Assembly (NCBI GenBank): GCA_026982655.1
Contig: JALSGO010000012.1
Location: 1 to 33,008 of the forward strand
DNA length: 33,008 bases
DNA from: Candidatus Bipolaricaulota bacterium
GTDB taxonomy: Bacteria > Bipolaricaulota > Bipolaricaulia > RBG-16-55-9
Reading direction: 5' to 3'
Each line of letters begins with the position of its first letter. The first letter of the stretch is position 1. The notes under the pieces are model-generated. The model searched no databases and had not been told where the DNA came from. It saw only the letters and a program-made list of their open reading frames with translations. This document shows, piece by piece, positions 17,630-26,697 of the stretch. The translations under genes were made by a program, and so were the position numbers.

Positions 17630-19114
17630 CTAGGGCCGATGGGCTCCCCGTAGGTATCGGAGGAAGCGCTCCACCGCGCGATCGTAGGTGTCGAAGGGGT
17701 CCTCAAACGTCAAAGCCCGCTTAGCCCCCACCGTAACCCCGTCCCACTCGATGAGGTAGTCCCGGATGGGCAGGGCCCGTAGGGCTTGGACGAGCCGCGC
17801 GCGGGCCTTGGCCCGGGTGTGCTCCGGGCCTTGGTAGAGCGCCAGCTCGATCTCCTCCTCCCCCACGATGCGGCGGATCCCCTCGGAGTCGGCGAGGGCG
17901 AAGAAGAGCCCCTGCTCCGGGTGGATGTTGTGGTACTCCAAGTCCAGGCTGTGGAGCGCCTGATCGTTCCAGTCGAGGCCCTCCGCCTCGCGATAGAGTT
18001 GGAGCATCTTGTACTTGGCCACCCAATCGAGGCGGTCCGCCAGCTCTAGGGGGTCGCGCTCCAGGGCGTCTAAGACGTGCTCCCACTCGTCGAGCAAGTA
18101 GTCGGTCTCCTCGTCGCGGCCCCGGAAGCGCTGGGCGGCCTCGAGGTAGCGGCGCTGGACGTCCACGGCCCGGATCGTCCGCCCGTCCTCGAGACGGGCG
18201 AGCCACTGCCAGGTGGGATCCCGCGAGATCTCCCGCAGGGCGTGGATGGGCTGATCCAACCGCAGATCTTGCGGGGCGGCGTGCTCCTCCAGCGCGTCGA
18301 GCACCAGGGCCGTGGTCCCGATCTTCAGGAACTCCGCGTACTCCGACATGTTTGACTCTCCAAACAAAATATGCAGCCGCGGGGCCCGCGAGGCGTCCTG
18401 GAAGCTGTCCCACTTGGGGTTGATGAGCGCGCGGCTGAAGCGCACCCGCCCGGAGGCCACATAGAGAATGTGATCCGCCCGCTGGGAGAGCTGAAAGTCC
18501 ACCGTGGGGTCGGGCTCGACGCCGTAGATCTGGTCGAGAAAGGCGTAGTCCACCCGGTGGCGGCTCAGCCCCCGGATCATGCGCCGGGGGTCGCTCGTCA
18601 AGCGATGGCCTCCCACGCGCCCCGCGCCCGCGAAGATCTGGCGCGTGACCAGAAACGGGATCAGGGGGGCGAGCCGTTGGCCGTAGGGGTGCGTCTCGGG
18701 GCTCAAGGAGTAGTTCTCGTGGCAGCCGAAGGTATGGCCCCCGTAGTGATCCACGTTGTTGTTGTGGAAGCTGACCCGCTCCTCCCAGCCCAGCTCCTGC
18801 AACAATTTGATGATCAGCCGCTGGCCCGCCTTGTCGTAGGCGATCACGTCCCGCAGGGTGAGGCACTCGGGGGTGGCGTACTCGAGGTGGCTGCCCACCA
18901 CGTCGATGTAGAGCCTTCCGCCGTTGATGAGGAAGCCCCCGGCCTCGGCGGGCTCGAAGAAGGCGTCGCGGGCGTAGCGGTCGATGAGCCCCCAGCGCTG
19001 GTCCCGGAAGGCCTGATCTTTCACGCGCTCGACGACCTCCTCGGGCTTCCCCAACACGGGGTCGCGGACGAAGCAGCCGAACTCCGTCTCGATGCCGACG
19101 ATTCTGCGCAACAT
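17630..19114 (-). CDS. pafA: Pup-protein ligase PafA
   Basis: Joins the C-terminal glutamate of Pup to a lysine of a target protein using ATP. The 494-residue product has the glutamine-synthetase-like fold: GIETEFG (metal-binding Glu9), GGRLYIDVVGSHLEYATPEC (catalytic Asp71), then NNNVDHYGGHTFGCHENY, LIPFLVTRQIFAGAGRVGG, RLHILFGESNMSEYAEFLKI and FEDPFDTYDRAVERFLRYL at the end, which matches PafA and not Dop. The Dop-specific loop is absent. DVVGSH has one residue more than the mycobacterial DVGSH. The ATG overlaps the prcA stop by one base (TGATG); the frame is open further upstream but only as prcA shadow. Last gene of the proteasome operon. Confidence 0.93.
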   Translation of the reverse strand: MLRRIVGIETEFGCFVRDPVLGKPEEVVERVKDQAFRDQRWGLIDRYARDAFFEPAEAGGFLINGGRLYIDVVGSHLEYATPECLTLRDVIAYDKAGQRLIIKLLQELGWEERVSFHNNNVDHYGGHTFGCHENYSLSPETHPYGQRLAPLIPFLVTRQIFAGAGRVGGHRLTSDPRRMIRGLSRHRVDYAFLDQIYGVEPDPTVDFQLSQRADHILYVASGRVRFSRALINPKWDSFQDASRAPRLHILFGESNMSEYAEFLKIGTTALVLDALEEHAAPQDLRLDQPIHALREISRDPTWQWLARLEDGRTIRAVDVQRRYLEAAQRFRGRDEETDYLLDEWEHVLDALERDPLELADRLDWVAKYKMLQLYREAEGLDWNDQALHSLDLEYHNIHPEQGLFFALADSEGIRRIVGEEEIELALYQGPEHTRAKARARLVQALRALPIRDYLIEWDGVTVGAKRALTFEDPFDTYDRAVERFLRYLRGAHRP

Positions 19115-19926
19115 CAGGGCAAAAACGCGTTCAGCTCCTCCTCGGGGAGGAAGCGCAGCAGCCGCTCCCGGCGGAGGTCCCGCTCCAAGAGGGCCGCCTC
19201 TACCCGCTCGCCCCCGCCCTCGAGGGCCTCGGCCAGCACGTTGCGGAGCTCCTCCTCCGGGGGCAGCGGGGCCTTCTCCCACTCCTCGGGCTCGGGCTCG
19301 GCTTCGGTCCCCTCCTCCAGGGCCCAGCGGCCGGTGGACCAAGCCTGGAGGGCCCGTTGCAGGCCCTCTTCCAGGGATAGCGCCTTGCGGGGTTTGCGCT
19401 TCGGGTTCGGGGAGCCCTCACCGGAGAGAACCCGCTCCATGAGCACCTCGGCGAAGTCCGTCCCCGCCGCGGCGGCGTAGTCGTGGTACAGCGCAAACTC
19501 CCCGTCGTAGTTGAGCACGTAGTACAGGTCCTCCGAGGGGGCCTCGGCCACCTGGACGAAGAGCCCTCGGATCACGAGGGGGGTGCGGAACGGGTCGGCA
19601 AAGGAGCGCTTGAGCGCGGGGCTGATGGCGAAGCCCACTACCCGCTGGATGGAGACGTCCTGCTCGCTGCGCTGGTACCCCTCGGCGTGGGCGAAGTCGA
19701 CCGCCGCGTGGCGGACGGCCTCGAGATCCGAGGGGTTCCCCAGGCCCGCAAACGCCAGACGATCATAGATCTCGAAGATCTTCGACTGGGTGCGGCGGGT
19801 GGTCAGCAGCAGGATGCCCTCTCGACAGCTGAGGGCGGCCACGGGGCTTCCGCCGCGGAGGCGGTCCTCGACGTAATCGGCCTTCTGGCGGAGGGTCTGT
19901 TGCCAGTCGTAGGGCGTGTAGGCCAT
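19114..19926 (-). CDS. prcA: Proteasome alpha subunit
   Basis: Forms the outer heptameric rings of the 20S core that gate substrate entry. The 270-residue product begins MAYTPYDWQQTLRQKADYVE, followed by SPVAALSCREGILLLTT, KIFEIYDRLAFAGLGN and FAHAEGYQRSEQDVS, aligning with mycobacterial PrcA. It lacks a catalytic Thr, as expected for alpha. The C-terminal 75 residues are charged (PEPEEWEKAPLPPEEELRN) and longer than in mycobacteria. The frame is open to 20070 and an upstream ATG exists, but the family N-terminus fits ATG 19926. A 170-bp gap separates it from the membrane-protein gene, while it overlaps pafA. Confidence 0.92.
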   Translation of the reverse strand: MAYTPYDWQQTLRQKADYVEDRLRGGSPVAALSCREGILLLTTRRTQSKIFEIYDRLAFAGLGNPSDLEAVRHAAVDFAHAEGYQRSEQDVSIQRVVGFAISPALKRSFADPFRTPLVIRGLFVQVAEAPSEDLYYVLNYDGEFALYHDYAAAAGTDFAEVLMERVLSGEGSPNPKRKPRKALSLEEGLQRALQAWSTGRWALEEGTEAEPEPEEWEKAPLPPEEELRNVLAEALEGGGERVEAALLERDLRRERLLRFLPEEELNAFLP

Positions 19927-20002
19927 GCTCGCCGGATCGCGCTCCTCTCCTGCCTTCGATGTGAAGGCGAAACGTTGGGTCCCGATACGATAACGAATCC
20001 CC

Positions 20003-20022
20003 GCCGAGCCTGCCAGCTCGGC
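20003..20022. repeat. Inverted repeat in the gap before prcA
   Basis: GCCGAGC (20003-20009), loop CTGCCA, GCTCGGC (20016-20022) is a perfect 7-bp stem within the 170-bp gap inside the proteasome operon. It could be a processing or regulatory element that sets the alpha to beta ratio; no promoter in the gap is convincing. Confidence 0.3.
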
Positions 20023-20096
20023 CCTCTCCACACGCAGGCACAGGAAGACGATCCCGCTCCCTGCACCCAAAGCGCTCGTCTAAGGCTCAGAGGGGG

Positions 20097-20828
20097 TCAC
20101 CCCATCCCAATATTCCTCCGGATGTCGAGGTAGAGAAACGCAAGGACACCGAAGGGGAGGGGATCATAAAGGGCCTCGATCCCGGCCACGATCCAGGACT
20201 CCGGGAAGAGAAGCCCCAAGAGGAGCGAGGGAAAGACGATGAGTAGCAGGACTACGAGCACGGCTCCCCAATCCCTGCGCACCAGCTCGTAGCTCCTCCG
20301 AATGCCTGCCCAACCGTAGACTCCTTCCTCGACGAAGACGAAGGCGATGAAGGCGGTGAACAACAGCACCAGAAAGAAGGCGAACAAGGCCGCATACAGC
20401 CAGAGCAGTCCGATGAATCGGATGAGAGCGGTGAGTCCCACGGCCGTCACGAAGATGGCGACCTCTAAGCCGAGGATCAAAGCCAGGGTCCCCAGGATGG
20501 GACCGATCTCGGACAGCACGAACCCGTAGGCCTCCTGCAGACTCGCCGTCCGCCCTTGGATGCGGTCGAGGATCGCCTTGGACAGCGCGTAGGATCCTAG
20601 GAACGTGATAAAGATCCCCGGCAGGAGCGCCAGCAGACTCACTTCAAGGGGTTGGGACTCAGAGACGAGCAGGAAGTACAGAAGTTCTCCGCTCAATCGG
20701 GCGATAAGGGCGATGCCAAAGAACGTAAGGAAGTTCTTGCGATAGAGGGCCAGCGCCCGCTTCCAGGCCTCCCCCATCGTCAGCGGGAGGTCTGGGGAGG
20801 GCCAACCCTCTCCCTTCACCTCCGGCAC
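20097..20828 (-). CDS. Polytopic membrane protein encoded inside the proteasome operon
   Basis: I do not recognise this 243-residue protein beyond a resemblance to the broad membrane families that start with an amphipathic helix of the type MGEAWKRALALYRKNFLTFF (YciC-like or GlpQ-membrane-domain-like). About six hydrophobic segments can be seen: LIARLSGELLYFLL, LLALLPGIFITFLGSYAL, ILGTLALILGLEVAIFV, LLWLYAALFAFFLVLLFTAF, AVLVVLLLIVFPSLLLGLLF and PLPFGVLAFLYLDI. The start is GTG 20828, three bases after the prcB stop, so translation is probably coupled. Base composition is less GC-biased at third positions than in prcB and prcA. A membrane protein here is not part of the known Pup-proteasome set. 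Confidence 0.8.
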   Translation of the reverse strand: MPEVKGEGWPSPDLPLTMGEAWKRALALYRKNFLTFFGIALIARLSGELLYFLLVSESQPLEVSLLALLPGIFITFLGSYALSKAILDRIQGRTASLQEAYGFVLSEIGPILGTLALILGLEVAIFVTAVGLTALIRFIGLLWLYAALFAFFLVLLFTAFIAFVFVEEGVYGWAGIRRSYELVRRDWGAVLVVLLLIVFPSLLLGLLFPESWIVAGIEALYDPLPFGVLAFLYLDIRRNIGMG

Positions 20829-20831
20829 GGC

Positions 20832-21680
20832 TTACACCCCCGTCATCAACTCCCTCTTGAGCACCCGGACGCGCTCCTCGGGGACGTCTTCGATGCCCCG
20901 GGCAGTGATGATTTTCGCCAAGGGGGGGTAGCCCGCCAGCCCCGAGGTCGCGGGATCCAGGCCCGCTGCTACGTCCAGAAGGAGCAACGACTCCCTCAGG
21001 GCCTCGTCGAGCGACATCTCGGGGAAGGGCTTCTTGGCGCGGGCTATATATTCCAACGCCCCGCGGATCTTCTCCGCCCCGGAGCCCGCCGCGCTGTACT
21101 CCCGGCTCTCGAAGCGGGCCCCTAAAATGTCATAGAAGAAGACCCGTCCCTCGCCCTTGCGCGCATCATAGGTGCTGACGATGGGGACAAACCCCCCGAT
21201 CCCCTGAAGAAGGGAGGGCACGCTCTGGGCGAGCACCTTGGAGACCTCCGAGAGCTTCCCCTCCAGGCTCATCTCCTGGAGCTGGCTGCGGGCGTAGTAC
21301 TTGAACGAGTGGCGCAGGTACCGGGCCGCCTCGGCGGCCTGAGCGTAGGAGCCCGCGATCGCGATCAGGGTGTAGTCGTCCAGCTTTAAGATCTTTTCCG
21401 CCTCGTCGTACAGGATCCCCGTGGCCGCGGTGGCCCGACGGTCGGCCACGTTGAGCACGCCCTCTTGGTACTTGAGGGCGATGACCGTCGTGCCGTGGGC
21501 CTCTCCCCCTAAGGGGAGCTCCCGATCTCGCATCCGAACCCCGGCCCCAGGGCGCGGTTCGGGTTGGGGAGCCCCCGCCGCGGGAACGGGCGAGAGCGGG
21601 GCCGGGGCGGAGCCCCCGGCGCGCTCCAACAGTCGGCGAAAATCGCCCCCGGTGCGATCCGGCTCGAACTCGATCGTCAT
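20832..21680 (-). CDS. prcB: Proteasome beta subunit
   Basis: Forms the inner catalytic rings of the 20S core. The 282-residue precursor has a 63-residue Pro/Ala-rich propeptide and then HG|TTVIALKYQEGVLNVADRR, placing the N-terminal nucleophile at Thr64 after self-cleavage. Asp and Lys partners are seen in VADRRAT and EKILKL, and the body continues LIAIAGSYAQAAEAARYL, GGFVPIVSTYD and SGAEKIRGALEYIA. Mature length about 219, close to mycobacterial PrcB. It starts 9 bp after pup; the ribosome site is weak, suggesting coupling to pup. Confidence 0.95.
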   Translation of the reverse strand: MTIEFEPDRTGGDFRRLLERAGGSAPAPLSPVPAAGAPQPEPRPGAGVRMRDRELPLGGEAHGTTVIALKYQEGVLNVADRRATAATGILYDEAEKILKLDDYTLIAIAGSYAQAAEAARYLRHSFKYYARSQLQEMSLEGKLSEVSKVLAQSVPSLLQGIGGFVPIVSTYDARKGEGRVFFYDILGARFESREYSAAGSGAEKIRGALEYIARAKKPFPEMSLDEALRESLLLLDVAAGLDPATSGLAGYPPLAKIITARGIEDVPEERVRVLKRELMTGV

Positions 21681-21689
21681 GGTTCCGTG

Positions 21690-21860
21690 TTATTGGCCGC
21701 TGCGCTGGCGGTAGCGGCGGGCCTGGCGCGGGTCGACCCGCTTCATCCGCTCCAGCAGGTCCTTGGTGTTGGGGCGCTCCACGTCCGGGGTGCGCGGCCC
21801 GTCCTCCTGAGGGCGGGTGAGCGGCTCCGGGGGCGCCGGTCGGGTGGTGCGCTCGGGCAT
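21690..21860 (-). CDS. pup: Prokaryotic ubiquitin-like modifier, UBact-type Pup
   Basis: A 56-residue disordered tag protein: MPERTTRPAPPEPLTRPQED at the N-terminus, a predicted helix with RPNTKDLLERMKRVD (29-43) for binding the Mpa coiled coil, and the C-terminus QARRYRQRSGQ. It ends in Gly-Gln, so it needs Dop deamidation to Glu before ligation. The Arg-rich RYRQRSG ending differs from the GGQ/GGE of actinobacterial Pup and matches the UBact type reported from non-actinobacterial phyla. Strong GGAGGTGA lies 5 nt before the ATG, and dop ends 5 bp upstream. The position between dop and prcB is as in mycobacteria. Confidence 0.92.
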   Translation of the reverse strand: MPERTTRPAPPEPLTRPQEDGPRTPDVERPNTKDLLERMKRVDPRQARRYRQRSGQ

Positions 21861-21865
21861 CGGGG

Positions 21866-23401
21866 TCACCTCCTCGTCCTCGCCTGTGCGTCGTCCGTAA
21901 GATGTCGGGTCCATTCTACCACATCGTGCAAGGAAGCGTCCGGGGGGAGTTCGCGCCCGTCGATCGCCTCGTCCACGCAGCGGGTGAGGTCCAACTCGAC
22001 CGTCCGGCGCCCCTGCTTCAGGGAGAGGCGCCCCCAGCTCGCGGCGGAGACCTCGAAGCGCTGCAGACAAAGCCCCCGCAGGAAGGCCCGGGTGTCCCGC
22101 GGCGGGAGCTGCCTCGCCCGCTCGATCTCCTTCTCCTTGAGGATCCGTTTCACAACCCCCTCGGTTTGTAGGGCCCAAAAGAGCCCCCGGTGCGGGTCGA
22201 GGCTGTGGTACTCCAGCTCCAAGCTCTGCAGGAGCTCCAGGGGAGCCGTCTCCCACTCGAGCCCTTCGGACTCCAAGAACGAGTCGAGGAGGGCCTTCTT
22301 CGCGGCCCAGTCCAAGCGGTCGCTCAGCTTCCTAGGGTCGGCTTCGAGGTCGTCGAGCGTGCGGGCCCACTCGCGCAGCACCCAGTCCGTCTCCCGATCC
22401 CGACCCTCGAAGAGCTCTTGAGCGGCCAAGAGATAGGCCCGCTGGACCTCCACGGCGGGGATCGTCTCCCCCTCGCGGGTCTCGACCGTCCAGCCCCCCT
22501 CGGGGTTGCGCGCGAGGGCCTTGATCGCTCCGATGGGGTCCCGAAGCTCCACGGGCGGGCCGTAGCCGCGCTCGAGCACGCCCAGCACCAGGGCGGTGGC
22601 GCCCACCTTGAGGGCCGCGGCGTACTCGCTCATCAGGGCGTCCCCGCAGATCACGTGGAGTCGGCGCCACCGTGCGGGATCGGCGTGCGGCTCGTCCCGG
22701 GTGTTGATGAGGGGCCGCCGGTGGAGGGTGTCGACGCTGGCCAGCTCGTCGAAGAACTCCGCCCGCTGCGAGAGCTGATAGACCTTGGCCCCCGGCTCCG
22801 GGCCCGTCTCGCAGCCGACCTTCCCCGCGCCCGCGTAGAGGATTCGGGTCACCAAGAAGGGGAGGAGTCCGGCCATCAGCCGCTCGAAGGGGAGATCTCG
22901 GCGCACTAAATAATTTTCGTGGCAGCCGTAGCTCATCCCGTGGTAGTCGCTGTTGTTCTTGTAGACGGCCACGTACCGTCCGGTCTCCTGGCGGTAGCGG
23001 CAGGCCGCGGCCCAGACGATCCGCTCCCCGGCGCGGTCGTGGGTCAAAAGATCCCACAAGGAGCGGCACTCCGGCGTGCTGTACTCCGGGTGGCCGTGGT
23101 CGTGGTAGAAGCGCGCCCCGTTCCGCAAGAGCCGGTCGACGTGGTCCTCCCGGGGGGAGCGGGGCTCCGGCCCCCGGGCGTGTCGGGATTGGCGCTCGAT
23201 CTCCTCGTCCTGGGGGTGGGTCGTAAGGCGCGAGGCCCGAAATCCCCGTACGTCTTGGAGGGGGCTCTCGCCGCGGTAATCCCAAACGGCCCGGGAGGAG
23301 ATCGTCTGGACGAGCCGGCGGGCCTCGGCGGTGAGCTCCCCCACGGAGACGCCCTCGATGTAGAGGCCGTACTCCGTCTCCAGGCCGAGCAGGCGGTCCA
23401 T
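21866..23401 (-). CDS. dop: Pup deamidase/depupylase Dop
   Basis: Deamidates the C-terminal Gln of Pup and removes Pup from tagged proteins. The 511 residues share the PafA fold: GLETEYG (Glu8), NGARFYHDHGHPEYSTPEC (Asp101), YKNNSDYHGMSYGCHENYL, LLPFLVTRILYAGAGKVG and INTRDEPHADPARWRRLHVI. The stretch WDYRGESPLQDVRGF (40-54) is the Dop-specific loop and sets it apart from PafA. The C-terminus DASLHDVVEWTRHLT also matches Dop. Begins 6 bp after mpa with a poor ribosome site, and is followed by pup after 5 bp. Confidence 0.94.
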   Translation of the reverse strand: MDRLLGLETEYGLYIEGVSVGELTAEARRLVQTISSRAVWDYRGESPLQDVRGFRASRLTTHPQDEEIERQSRHARGPEPRSPREDHVDRLLRNGARFYHDHGHPEYSTPECRSLWDLLTHDRAGERIVWAAACRYRQETGRYVAVYKNNSDYHGMSYGCHENYLVRRDLPFERLMAGLLPFLVTRILYAGAGKVGCETGPEPGAKVYQLSQRAEFFDELASVDTLHRRPLINTRDEPHADPARWRRLHVICGDALMSEYAAALKVGATALVLGVLERGYGPPVELRDPIGAIKALARNPEGGWTVETREGETIPAVEVQRAYLLAAQELFEGRDRETDWVLREWARTLDDLEADPRKLSDRLDWAAKKALLDSFLESEGLEWETAPLELLQSLELEYHSLDPHRGLFWALQTEGVVKRILKEKEIERARQLPPRDTRAFLRGLCLQRFEVSAASWGRLSLKQGRRTVELDLTRCVDEAIDGRELPPDASLHDVVEWTRHLTDDAQARTRR

Positions 23402-23407
23402 AGGGGA

Positions 23408-25159
23408 TCAGACGACGGACTCCGTGGCCGGGAGACGGCGGTCGCCCTCGCGGATGGGGCGGACCTCCACGACGTCCTCGGGGTCGTAGTCGAGGAGCTT
23501 GAGCCAGTCCTCGAGGTAGTCCGTCTTGGGGAAGATCTCGTTCTCCTTGTACTCTTGGCGGAGGGCCTCGAAGAGGTCGTCCGGGCCGATCCCCTCCTCG
23601 TCCGTGCCGCGGTCGATGCACCGCTGGATGGCGTACTCTTTCGCGCGCTCGACCGCGCTCATGATGAGCGCGCCGCTCACCAGGTCGCTCCAGTAGAGCG
23701 TCTCCCGCCGACCGCTTCGCAGGTGCACTTCCAAGAAGGCCGTCTCCGGGCTCCTCCGGAAGAGGTACTCGGTCGCCTCCTGGACGAGGGCCTCGCGGGC
23801 CTTTTCCCAGCGCCCGTCGTGCCGCTTGATCCACTCCGGGTCGAGGGGCACGCCCTTGCGGAGGTAGATGCGGAAGATCTCCGCCGACGCCCGCCGGTCG
23901 GGACGGGAGACCTTCACCTTGCGGTCGATCCGCTCCGGGCGCAGCAGCGCCGGGTCGATGTAATCGGGACGGTTCGAGGTGAGCATCACCACCACGTTCT
24001 CCAGCTCCACCAGCCCGTCCATCTCCGCGGCGAACTGGGGGACCACCGTGTTGGCGATGTTCAAATGCCTCCCGCTGCTGCGGACCCTAAGCAGGGCGTC
24101 GGCCTCGTCGATGAAGATGAACACGAGGTTCCCCTCTTTCGCCCGCTCGCGGGCCGCGGCGAAGATCTCGCGGACCATCCGCTCCGTCTCCCCGAGCCAC
24201 ATGTTCAAGAGCTGCGGCCCGTTGATCAGCATAAAGCACTCGCGCACGTCCCGGCCCGTCTTCTCCCGGTAGGACTTCGTGAGGTTATACGCGGTGGCCT
24301 TGGCGATGAGGGTCTTCCCGCACCCCGGCGGGCCGTAGAGTAGAATCCCTTTGAGTTGCTTCTTGCCGAACTTCTTGTAGAGCTCGGGATAGAGCAGGGG
24401 GCGCTCGATGGTGTCCCGGATGAGCTTGATCGCTTCCTCCTGCCCGCCCACCCGGTCCCAGGGGATCTCGGGGATCTTCTCGAGGTAGTAGCCGCGGACC
24501 TCGCTCTTCCGGAAGTGCTCGAGGGCCACCCGCAACGAAGGCTCCAGCCGCACCTCGTCACCGGGCTTTAGGGGAGCGTCCTCCAGGGCGGAGGAGCGCA
24601 GGATGATCCGCCCCGAGAGCTGGTGGCCGTCCAAGGAAACGCGCAACCTGCCGTCGGGGAGGACCTCTGCGACCTTGACGATGGGGCCCTCGGGGTGATA
24701 GCCCAGATCGCCCACCACGGCGAAGGCCTCGTTCACCTTGACGCGCGTCCCCACCTGAAGCTGGCGGATATCGAGGTGGGGGTCGACGTTCGCGTAGTAC
24801 TCCGCGTCCCCGACGGCGATGTAGGCGATCCCCTCGTCGGGGGAGCCCAAGTACGTCCCGATGCGGTTGGCCGGGGAGGTGAGCTTCTCGTAGGCCTCCT
24901 CGTACTGCGCCAAGGCCTCGCGGGCCTCTTCCATCGCCCGCTCGTCGGCCTGGAGCTGGTAGTCCAAAAGCTCCAAGAGCTCCCAGCGAGCGTCGTCTCG
25001 GGGCGTGCGGGCCAGGATCTCGCGGAGGATCGCCCGCGCGCGCAGCCGGGGCTCCAGCACGAAGGGACCGTCCTCGGGACGGGAACCGCGCTCCCTCTCC
25101 CTTCCCTCCCCGCGACCGTGGGGCTCCTCTTCGGGCGAAAGGTCCTTGCGTCGAGCCAT
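23408..25159 (-). CDS. mpa: Proteasome-associated AAA ATPase Mpa/ARC
   Basis: Hexameric unfoldase that captures pupylated proteins and threads them into the 20S core. The 583 residues comprise a charged N-terminus (1-35), a coiled coil (about 55-95), two OB-like domains (about 96-225) and an AAA+ module with Walker A GPPGCGKT (276-283), Walker B FIFIDEAD (347-354) and arginines in LLRPERID (406-412). The pore loop reads NMWLGE, with Trp321 in the place of the usual Tyr. The C-terminus is RRLPATESVV and lacks the GQYL-type tail that docks mycobacterial Mpa into PrcA. ATG 25159 is preceded by AGAGGAGATC. First gene of the operon. Confidence 0.94.
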   Translation of the reverse strand: MARRKDLSPEEEPHGRGEGRERERGSRPEDGPFVLEPRLRARAILREILARTPRDDARWELLELLDYQLQADERAMEEAREALAQYEEAYEKLTSPANRIGTYLGSPDEGIAYIAVGDAEYYANVDPHLDIRQLQVGTRVKVNEAFAVVGDLGYHPEGPIVKVAEVLPDGRLRVSLDGHQLSGRIILRSSALEDAPLKPGDEVRLEPSLRVALEHFRKSEVRGYYLEKIPEIPWDRVGGQEEAIKLIRDTIERPLLYPELYKKFGKKQLKGILLYGPPGCGKTLIAKATAYNLTKSYREKTGRDVRECFMLINGPQLLNMWLGETERMVREIFAAARERAKEGNLVFIFIDEADALLRVRSSGRHLNIANTVVPQFAAEMDGLVELENVVVMLTSNRPDYIDPALLRPERIDRKVKVSRPDRRASAEIFRIYLRKGVPLDPEWIKRHDGRWEKAREALVQEATEYLFRRSPETAFLEVHLRSGRRETLYWSDLVSGALIMSAVERAKEYAIQRCIDRGTDEEGIGPDDLFEALRQEYKENEIFPKTDYLEDWLKLLDYDPEDVVEVRPIREGDRRLPATESVV

Positions 25160-25233
25160 CGCTCTCGATCGATCTCCTCTCAGGCAGGTCGGGTCCGTAT
25201 TTGCATCCGTTCCCGTCCCCGCGTCGATCCTAT

Positions 25234-25262
25234 ACGTTACCGCGCCGCCGAGGGGTGTGCAA
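25234..25262 (-). promoter_or_regulatory. Weak candidate promoter of the proteasome operon
   Basis: On the minus strand TTGCAC (25257-25262), 17-bp spacer, TAACGT (25234-25239). The -10 box matches only half the consensus. The leader to mpa would be about 68 nt. The -35 half of an inverted repeat shared with the protease promoter lies here. Confidence 0.35.
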
Positions 25263-25266
25263 GGGC

Positions 25267-25295
25267 TTGCAGCGCGCGGCAAAGCCCATTATAGT
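25267..25295 (+). promoter_or_regulatory. sigma70-type promoter of the secreted protease, leaderless
   Basis: TTGCAG (25267-25272), 17-bp spacer, TATAGT (25290-25295). The ATG at 25306 is 10 nt past the -10, so the message should start about 4 nt before the start codon. Confidence 0.6.
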
Positions 25296-25305
25296 GCGCA
25301 CCGCC

Positions 25306-26697
25306 ATGGATCGGACGACCCCGGCACGCCTCCGGCTTCCGGCTATACTAAGCCTCCTCGCGCTCGCGGTTTGGGCGCTTCCCGACGGCGTCCGGGCCCA
25401 GATGGAGGGGCAGGGACGCGTCCTCCCGTACGAACCGTACGGGCCCCGCTCCGTGCGGGCCCAGCTGGCGGAGAGCCTGCGGCTCCTGGGGCTGGATCGG
25501 GTGCACCGCGAGCTGGGGATCCGGGGAGCGGGCGTCGGCGTGCTGGTGATCGACGACTGGACCTTCCGTCCGGAGCGGGGCTACGTCCACGGGCAGGCGG
25601 TGGCGGAGACGATCCGAGGGGCCGCGCCGGAGGCGACGCTCTGGTTCTGTCGGCTCGACTTCGCCCAGGCGGGGCCCCAAGAGCTTGCCGACTGCCTGAA
25701 CGACGTGCTCCTGCAGGACCTGCCCGTGCGGGTGGTGAACCTCAGCTTCGCCTCCGGGGACGGACTCTATGGGGAGCCCTGCGGCTTCCTCGCCCAAGAC
25801 CCCCGCAACCCCTTGGCCCGAGCGATCCGCGCTCTCTATGAGCGAGGGGTGATCTTCGTCGCCGCCTCGGGGAACGACGGGTTCAAAAGGGGCCTGCGGT
25901 TCCCCGCCTGCCTTCCTGAGGTGCTGAGCGTGGGGGCCACCTACGACTTCACCGGGGAGGCCGTCTTCCGGTCGGAACAGGTCTCCTGCGCCGACCGGGC
26001 CGCCCCCGACCGGGTGACCTGCTACTCCGACGTGGCCCCGTACCTCGACGTCGTCGCGCCGGGGACGGTGGTGAGCACGCCCTCGGCCCCGGACTTCGGC
26101 GGCACCTCGGCGGCGGCCCCCCTCGTGAGCGGGGTGGCGGCGCTCCTGCTCTCCGCGCAGTCCCGGCTGACGGCTCCGGAGGTCGTCCGCGTCCTGAGAA
26201 GCACAGGGGTCCCGGCCTTCGACCCGAGGGCCAACGCGTACTTTCCCCGCGTCGACGCGTATCGAGCGCTGCAGGCGGTGCTCTCCCCTTCCCCGGCTCC
26301 CCCCGCAGGCCTAGGGGCCTTCGACGCCAACGGGAACGGCCTCATCGACGACTCGGAGTTCTTCGCCGCCGTGGACGCCTGGATCGAGGGCACCCTCCCC
26401 GACGGGGTCTTCTTCGCCCTCATCGACGCCTGGGTGGCCCGAGCGCCCGTTCGAGGGACGGCTTCTCCTTCCCCGCCTCCCCTCTCGCTCCACGGCCTCC
26501 GGCTCGAAAATGCGGACACGATCTGGATCTACGACGCGCGGGGCCGCCGGCTCGCCGCGATCTCCCGGCCCCGGCTCCCGCAGCTCCAACGGCTCCTGCG
26601 CCGCCGGGCCAACGGCGTTTACCTCTATGTCATCCAAGAGAGCGATTCGGAAGGGCACCGGGTGCGGACGGTGGGAAAGCTCGTCGTGCTGCGCTGA
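25306..26697 (+). CDS. Secreted subtilisin-like serine protease with EF-hand loop and sorting-like C-terminal module
   Basis: A 463-residue exported S8-family protease. A signal peptide (about 1-31, ending GVRA) is followed by the catalytic domain: Asp83 in VLVIDDW, His95 in VHGQAVAE, oxyanion Asn190 in VAASGNDG and nucleophile Ser268 in GGTSAAAPLVSG. Spacing between Asp and His is very short (12 residues). After a Pro-rich linker comes a perfect 12-residue EF-hand loop DANGNGLIDDSE (340-351), as in dockerin-like modules, and then a beta module IWIYDARGRRLA ... ANGVYLYVIQ ... GKLVVLR resembling C-terminal sorting or FlgD-type domains. The start was chosen at the signal peptide; open frame upstream lies before the promoter. 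Confidence 0.88.
   Translation: MDRTTPARLRLPAILSLLALAVWALPDGVRAQMEGQGRVLPYEPYGPRSVRAQLAESLRLLGLDRVHRELGIRGAGVGVLVIDDWTFRPERGYVHGQAVAETIRGAAPEATLWFCRLDFAQAGPQELADCLNDVLLQDLPVRVVNLSFASGDGLYGEPCGFLAQDPRNPLARAIRALYERGVIFVAASGNDGFKRGLRFPACLPEVLSVGATYDFTGEAVFRSEQVSCADRAAPDRVTCYSDVAPYLDVVAPGTVVSTPSAPDFGGTSAAAPLVSGVAALLLSAQSRLTAPEVVRVLRSTGVPAFDPRANAYFPRVDAYRALQAVLSPSPAPPAGLGAFDANGNGLIDDSEFFAAVDAWIEGTLPDGVFFALIDAWVARAPVRGTASPSPPPLSLHGLRLENADTIWIYDARGRRLAAISRPRLPQLQRLLRRRANGVYLYVIQESDSEGHRVRTVGKLVVLR

Follow-up and report, generated by a model that had tools for sequence, protein, structure and literature searches.

A membrane-protein gene between prcB and prcA in a Bipolaricaulota Pup-proteasome operon: a probable relict of a MoxR/DUF58 gene cluster

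The Pup-proteasome locus usually displays the gene order mpa, dop, pup, prcB, prcA, pafA; outside Actinobacteria and Nitrospirae, Pup-pathway genes are found sporadically (PMC7947786). A second described gene set, from mycobacteria, consists of Rv3689 (membrane protein), Rv3691 (DUF4350), Rv3692 (MoxR), Rv3693 (DUF58), Rv3694c (SpoIIM) and Rv3695 (RDD) (PMC8191103). In the literature searched, no description was found of MoxR-cluster genes associated with the Pup-proteasome, nor of a proteasome in Fraserbacteria or Acetothermia.

The stretch of DNA analyzed here (the window, 33,008 nt) is contig C12 of a 2.08-Mb draft genome of Candidatus Bipolaricaulota (169 contigs, 90% complete; termed G000). 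Relatives are from GTDB genomes labeled Ca. Bipolaricaulota, Ca. Acetothermia and Ca. Fraserbacteria. The window has a complete Pup-proteasome locus (PrcA, PrcB, Mpa, a Pup ending in Gln, PafA and Dop), with several NCBIfam scores below the equivalog cut-offs. All components are present in the usual order, however prcB and prcA are kept apart by an open reading frame termed mem. The locus reads mpa, dop-like, pup, prcB, mem, prcA, pafA-like on the minus strand:

23408–25162, minus strand: mpa/arc proteasome ATPase
21866–23401, minus strand: Pup ligase/depupylase family, best NCBIfam match Dop
21690–21860, minus strand: pup, 56 aa, C-terminus SGQ
20832–21680, minus strand: prcB, proteasome beta subunit (TIGR03690, E = 2e-35, below cut-off; PF00227, E = 5e-24, above cut-off)
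20097–20828, minus strand: mem, 243-aa six-helix membrane protein with a GTG start, an orphan homologue of gene 1 of a MoxR/DUF58 cluster
19927–20096, minus strand: mem–prcA spacer, 170 nt, in which no remnant of other cluster genes was found
19983–20015, minus strand: 33-nt conserved block preceding prcA, shared with another species of the genus (G002)
19114–19926, minus strand: prcA, proteasome alpha subunit (TIGR03691, E = 9e-18, below cut-off), its start set by alignment to MAYTPYDW of relatives
17630–19120, minus strand: Pup ligase/depupylase family, best NCBIfam match PafA

The open reading frame between prcB and prcA

The initial annotation described mem as a six-segment membrane protein with a GTG start, 3 nt after prcB and between the two core-particle genes, and both the open reading frame and a structural model agree with this. 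The prcB stop codon is at positions 20832–20834 and is separated from the GTG by 3 nt (TAA-GCC-GTG), a spacing that makes translational coupling of mem to prcB plausible. The third-position composition had also been said to differ, and it does so mildly (GC of 0.795, as against 0.86–0.92 in the operon neighbors).

The length of mem is by itself weak evidence of coding, because an open frame of at least 243 codons is present in 15 of 500 Markov-randomized versions of the interval (3%). Two homologues are found at the same place in G002, a congener of the window genome and the second species of genus g1 (draft 85% complete), with 55% and 49% identity to the window mem. Differences per codon position between the window mem and the first G002 copy are 0.34, 0.27 and 0.45, highest at third positions, and the dN/dS ratio is 0.40. 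The homologues and this coding-type divergence show that mem is a genuine coding gene. The dN/dS ratio is 0.27 for prcB and 0.06 for prcA (first 159 codons only); as judged from these ratios, mem is fast-evolving yet under purifying selection. An assembly or binning artefact, or a spurious open reading frame, might be suspected in a draft of 169 contigs, given the 3% of randomized intervals with a frame of this length. The likelihood of this is negligible: the independently assembled genomes G002 and G001, the latter from another genus of the family, carry homologues at this position whose divergence is of the coding type, and the G002 copies refute it. The gene is therefore not absent from this position in all close relatives, a possibility raised at the outset.

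An AlphaFold2 model of mem, built from four sequences (pLDDT 87, pTM 0.84), displays six long helices of membrane-spanning length together with short interfacial helices. The protein sequence of the window mem gave no match in Pfam and nothing useful in NCBIfam and PDB, and a tblastn search of plasmid records gave no match. With the model as query, the nearest Foldseek structures were a phage DUF975 protein (TM 0.55/0.63) and CysZ (TM 0.58/0.62), none reaching E = 0.001; this is a loose likeness of fold and no claim of sulfate transport is made. Homologues of mem in the gene clusters of G001 and G051 (see below) weakly match DUF7847 (PF25231), DUF7544 (PF24400) and GPDPase_memb (PF10110), with E-values of 2e-5 to 5e-4, below the cut-offs. 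For DUF7847 the G001 homologue scores 24.3 bits against a curated cut-off of 28.7, and the window mem has no match. The six-helix fold resembles these families, the window mem protein itself being without a Pfam match.

The gene cluster in related genomes

A prcB gene is present in 15 of 100 genomes of the phylum, every one within the order of the window genome. In 12 of these prcB and prcA are directly adjacent: G003, from the window's own family f1, plus 11 genomes distributed over families f2, f3 and f4. They are split in G000, G002 and G001, all of family f1. Thus the split is an oddity of this family, and mem, present at the locus in 3 of 15 proteasome-bearing relatives, is not a conserved component of the Pup locus. 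The number of genes between prcB and prcA forms a series of 0, 1, 2 or 7.

The seven genes are found in G001. They have the order mem homologue (immediately after prcB), DUF4129, DUF4350-like, MoxR (PF07726), DUF58 (PF01882), SpoIIM (PF01944, on the opposite strand) and RDD (PF06271). The DUF4350-like label is from position and likeness; Pfam gave nothing above cut-off for this membrane protein. G051 (family f2) has all seven as well, with gene order and orientations unchanged, on a contig other than that of its prc genes. In G052 (family f3) the set is divided between two contigs, genes 1–5 on the first and SpoIIM and RDD on the second, away from prc in each case. The occurrence of this cluster elsewhere without prc shows the G001 block to be an independently existing cluster, whose normal first member is the gene adjacent to prcB. 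Compared by listed gene kinds, G001 and G051 correspond to Rv3689–Rv3695 in content and order: the membrane gene comes first, and SpoIIM is read from the opposite strand. Unlike the mycobacterial set, the G001 cluster lies between prcB and prcA, and the window keeps the head gene only.

Among 19 genomes of the order, SpoIIM and RDD are found in G001, G051 and G052 only, as are strong DUF58 matches (at least 50% identity). The MoxR proteins of these three genomes form one clade (99/99), separate from the MoxRs of G000 and G002.

Across the 100 phylum genomes, clear matches to a mem profile are confined to the f1 genes and the cluster heads of G051 and G052. Alignment by hhalign of the three g1 mem sequences with those of G051 and G052 gave a probability of 98.4% and E = 8e-15. 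In the mem tree the G001 and genus-g1 sequences group together (99/99) on a very long branch; the window mem has 36% identity to that of G001. On the strength of the hhalign result and the tree, the window mem is homologous to the membrane gene of the MoxR/DUF58 cluster. Homologues away from any proteasome gene, which had been named as evidence against a proteasome link, are therefore present in the clusters of G051 and G052.

A probable relict of the cluster

No DUF4129, MoxR, DUF58, SpoIIM or RDD neighbors or remnants were found in the window. G000 and G002 (drafts 90% and 85% complete) have neither SpoIIM nor RDD, nor MoxR and DUF58 of the cluster type. Thus, within draft completeness, six of the seven cluster genes were lost in genus g1. 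Mem appears to be the only gene left from a MoxR/DUF58 (stress/membrane) cluster of seven genes once inserted between prcB and prcA (probability about 0.78).

As to the course of events, we infer that an ancestor within family f1 would have gained the cluster between prcB and prcA, with the other six genes then being lost in g1. Mem would probably be translated by re-initiation or coupling from prcB. It is proposed that it was retained because it lies 3–5 nt behind prcB, with probable co-translation. Fast evolution and one duplication, as a [prcB 3′ end + mem] unit, would have followed. The ancestors of mem would have partnered a MoxR-DUF58 machine at the membrane. The window protein, now orphaned, is most likely still a polytopic inner-membrane protein of the DUF7847/DUF7544/GPDPase_memb kind.

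Mem may alternatively still serve another MoxR/DUF58 system (contigs C165, C138 and C19), its place in the prc operon being incidental. G000 has two further MoxR loci and two distant DUF58 homologues, as does G002, which gives this proposal some footing; however, the retained MoxRs fall in two other clades and no mem homologue lies beside them. It is regarded as a doubtful alternative, though one to be kept in mind.

The initial annotation suggested that mem tethers the proteasome to the membrane or supplies it with membrane substrates. A related proposal is that, once the remaining cluster genes had gone, the Pup-proteasome system took mem over, for example to dock Mpa/20S at the membrane or to act as an adaptor for membrane substrates, and that this use is why the gene was kept. 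Selection on mem in two species (dN/dS 0.40), its retention right behind prcB and its duplication in G002 are consistent with recruitment, and the long branch would suit a changed function. On the other hand, 12 of 15 proteasome-bearing relatives are without mem, the gene is far less constrained than prcB (0.27) or prcA (0.06), and there is neither a shared domain nor a literature link. Recruitment is thus quite unlikely. For both the tether and the substrate supplier no positive support was obtained, the nearest homologues belonging to MoxR/DUF58 clusters away from prc in two families and 12 of 15 relatives having no insert. The broader proposal, that a MoxR/DUF58 membrane chaperone machine is functionally joined to the Pup-proteasome, with the whole machine in the G001 operon and mem docking or feeding the proteasome in g1, is very improbable. 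A role of mem in the 20S core is possible but unsupported, because most proteasome-bearing relatives are without the gene; most likely it has none. The earlier statement that no link between this type of protein and the Pup system has been described holds in the literature searched. The position of mem is probably a matter of history (insertion and co-translation) and is no proof of proteasome function.

If mem is the relict of a cluster, a Pup-proteasome operon outside Actinobacteria has tolerated a whole foreign cluster between the genes of its core subunits, and the insert has worn down to one orphan gene. This is a warning that operon neighborhood is an unsafe guide to function. The natural series of 0, 1, 2 and 7 inserted genes offers a setting in which to ask whether a membrane protein orphaned from its MoxR cluster retains its old function or takes on a new one.

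Duplication, prcA leader and branching within the family

G002 (locus L005, contig G002:C66) displays two tandem mem copies between prcB and prcA. The spacer between them contains 52 nt copied from the 3′ end of prcB, identical to the window prcB at 50 of 52 positions (E = 9e-23). The presence of a prcB tail before the second copy shows that the duplicated unit was [prcB 3′ end + mem], with mem already behind prcB. It may also be noted that this 52-nt copy is closer to the prcB tail of the window than to that of G002 itself. The suggestion that mem is a recent insertion stands as to insertion but not as to age: mem is common to both g1 species, and in another genus this site holds the whole cluster.

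The 33-nt block upstream of prcA (19983–20015) is kept in G002 at 29 of 33 positions, a score reached by none of 300 shuffles. It is a possible prcA promoter or operator (TGGCAG-N17-TATCGT), and a scan upstream of prcA for the sigma-70-type promoter consensus gave no match. A prcA leader shared by G000 and G001 was considered and rejected: the ATTCGYTAT match is no better than in shuffles, and the 33-nt block is not significant in G001.

The branching within family f1 bears on the number of insertions. The SecD/SecF tree favors G001 with G003 (83/84, not starred) and places G004, the closest genus, as sister of g1 (99/98). The tree of Pup-operon proteins favors G003 with the window genome (89/90, not starred), and a grouping of g1 with G001 is not rejected (p = 0.18). 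On SecD/SecF a single clade of g1 and G001 without G004 is rejected (p = 0.001), and a clade of g1, G004 and G001 is not (p = 0.26). If either favored branching is true, G003 lost the whole insert cleanly or insertion occurred twice; one insertion with clean loss in G003 and two insertions are both possible. G004 has fragments of Pup-ligase family genes on two contigs, C155 and C224. These suggest an assembly gap at the locus, so that the state of prcB and prcA is unreadable in this assembly; the idea that G004 is without a Pup system was dropped.

The species trees, which keep g1 and G001 apart, and the lack of significant similarity between the prcA leaders of G000/G002 and G001 would be consistent with an independent event, in which g1 acquired a single membrane gene between prcB and prcA that had nothing to do with the cluster inserted in G001. 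The site is the same, however, as is the prcB-adjacent gene, and the closest homology of mem is to the first gene of the cluster; an independent event is considered unlikely. The relict reading, preferred here, has as its counterpoints the f1 branching, the lack of a Pfam match, the 36% identity to the G001 mem and the gap in G004.

Several minor observations were made on Pup loci of the order. In SKYB128, an M48 metallopeptidase gene (L010:10703–11950) lies directly after prcB, and the rest of the contig gave no prcA. In genera g7 and g8 of family f3 (L052–L054, L056–L060), mpa was not found beside dop-pup-prcB-prcA; by contrast, mpa adjacency is kept in f1, f2, f4 and G052. The Pup C-terminus differs within the order, being SGQ in G000, G051 and G062 and SGE in G003, G052, G058 and G061; from this variation the need for Dop deamidation seems to have changed more than once. 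A subtilisin-like protease gene is divergent from mpa both in the window (25201–26697, plus strand) and in G003 (L008:3554–4849).
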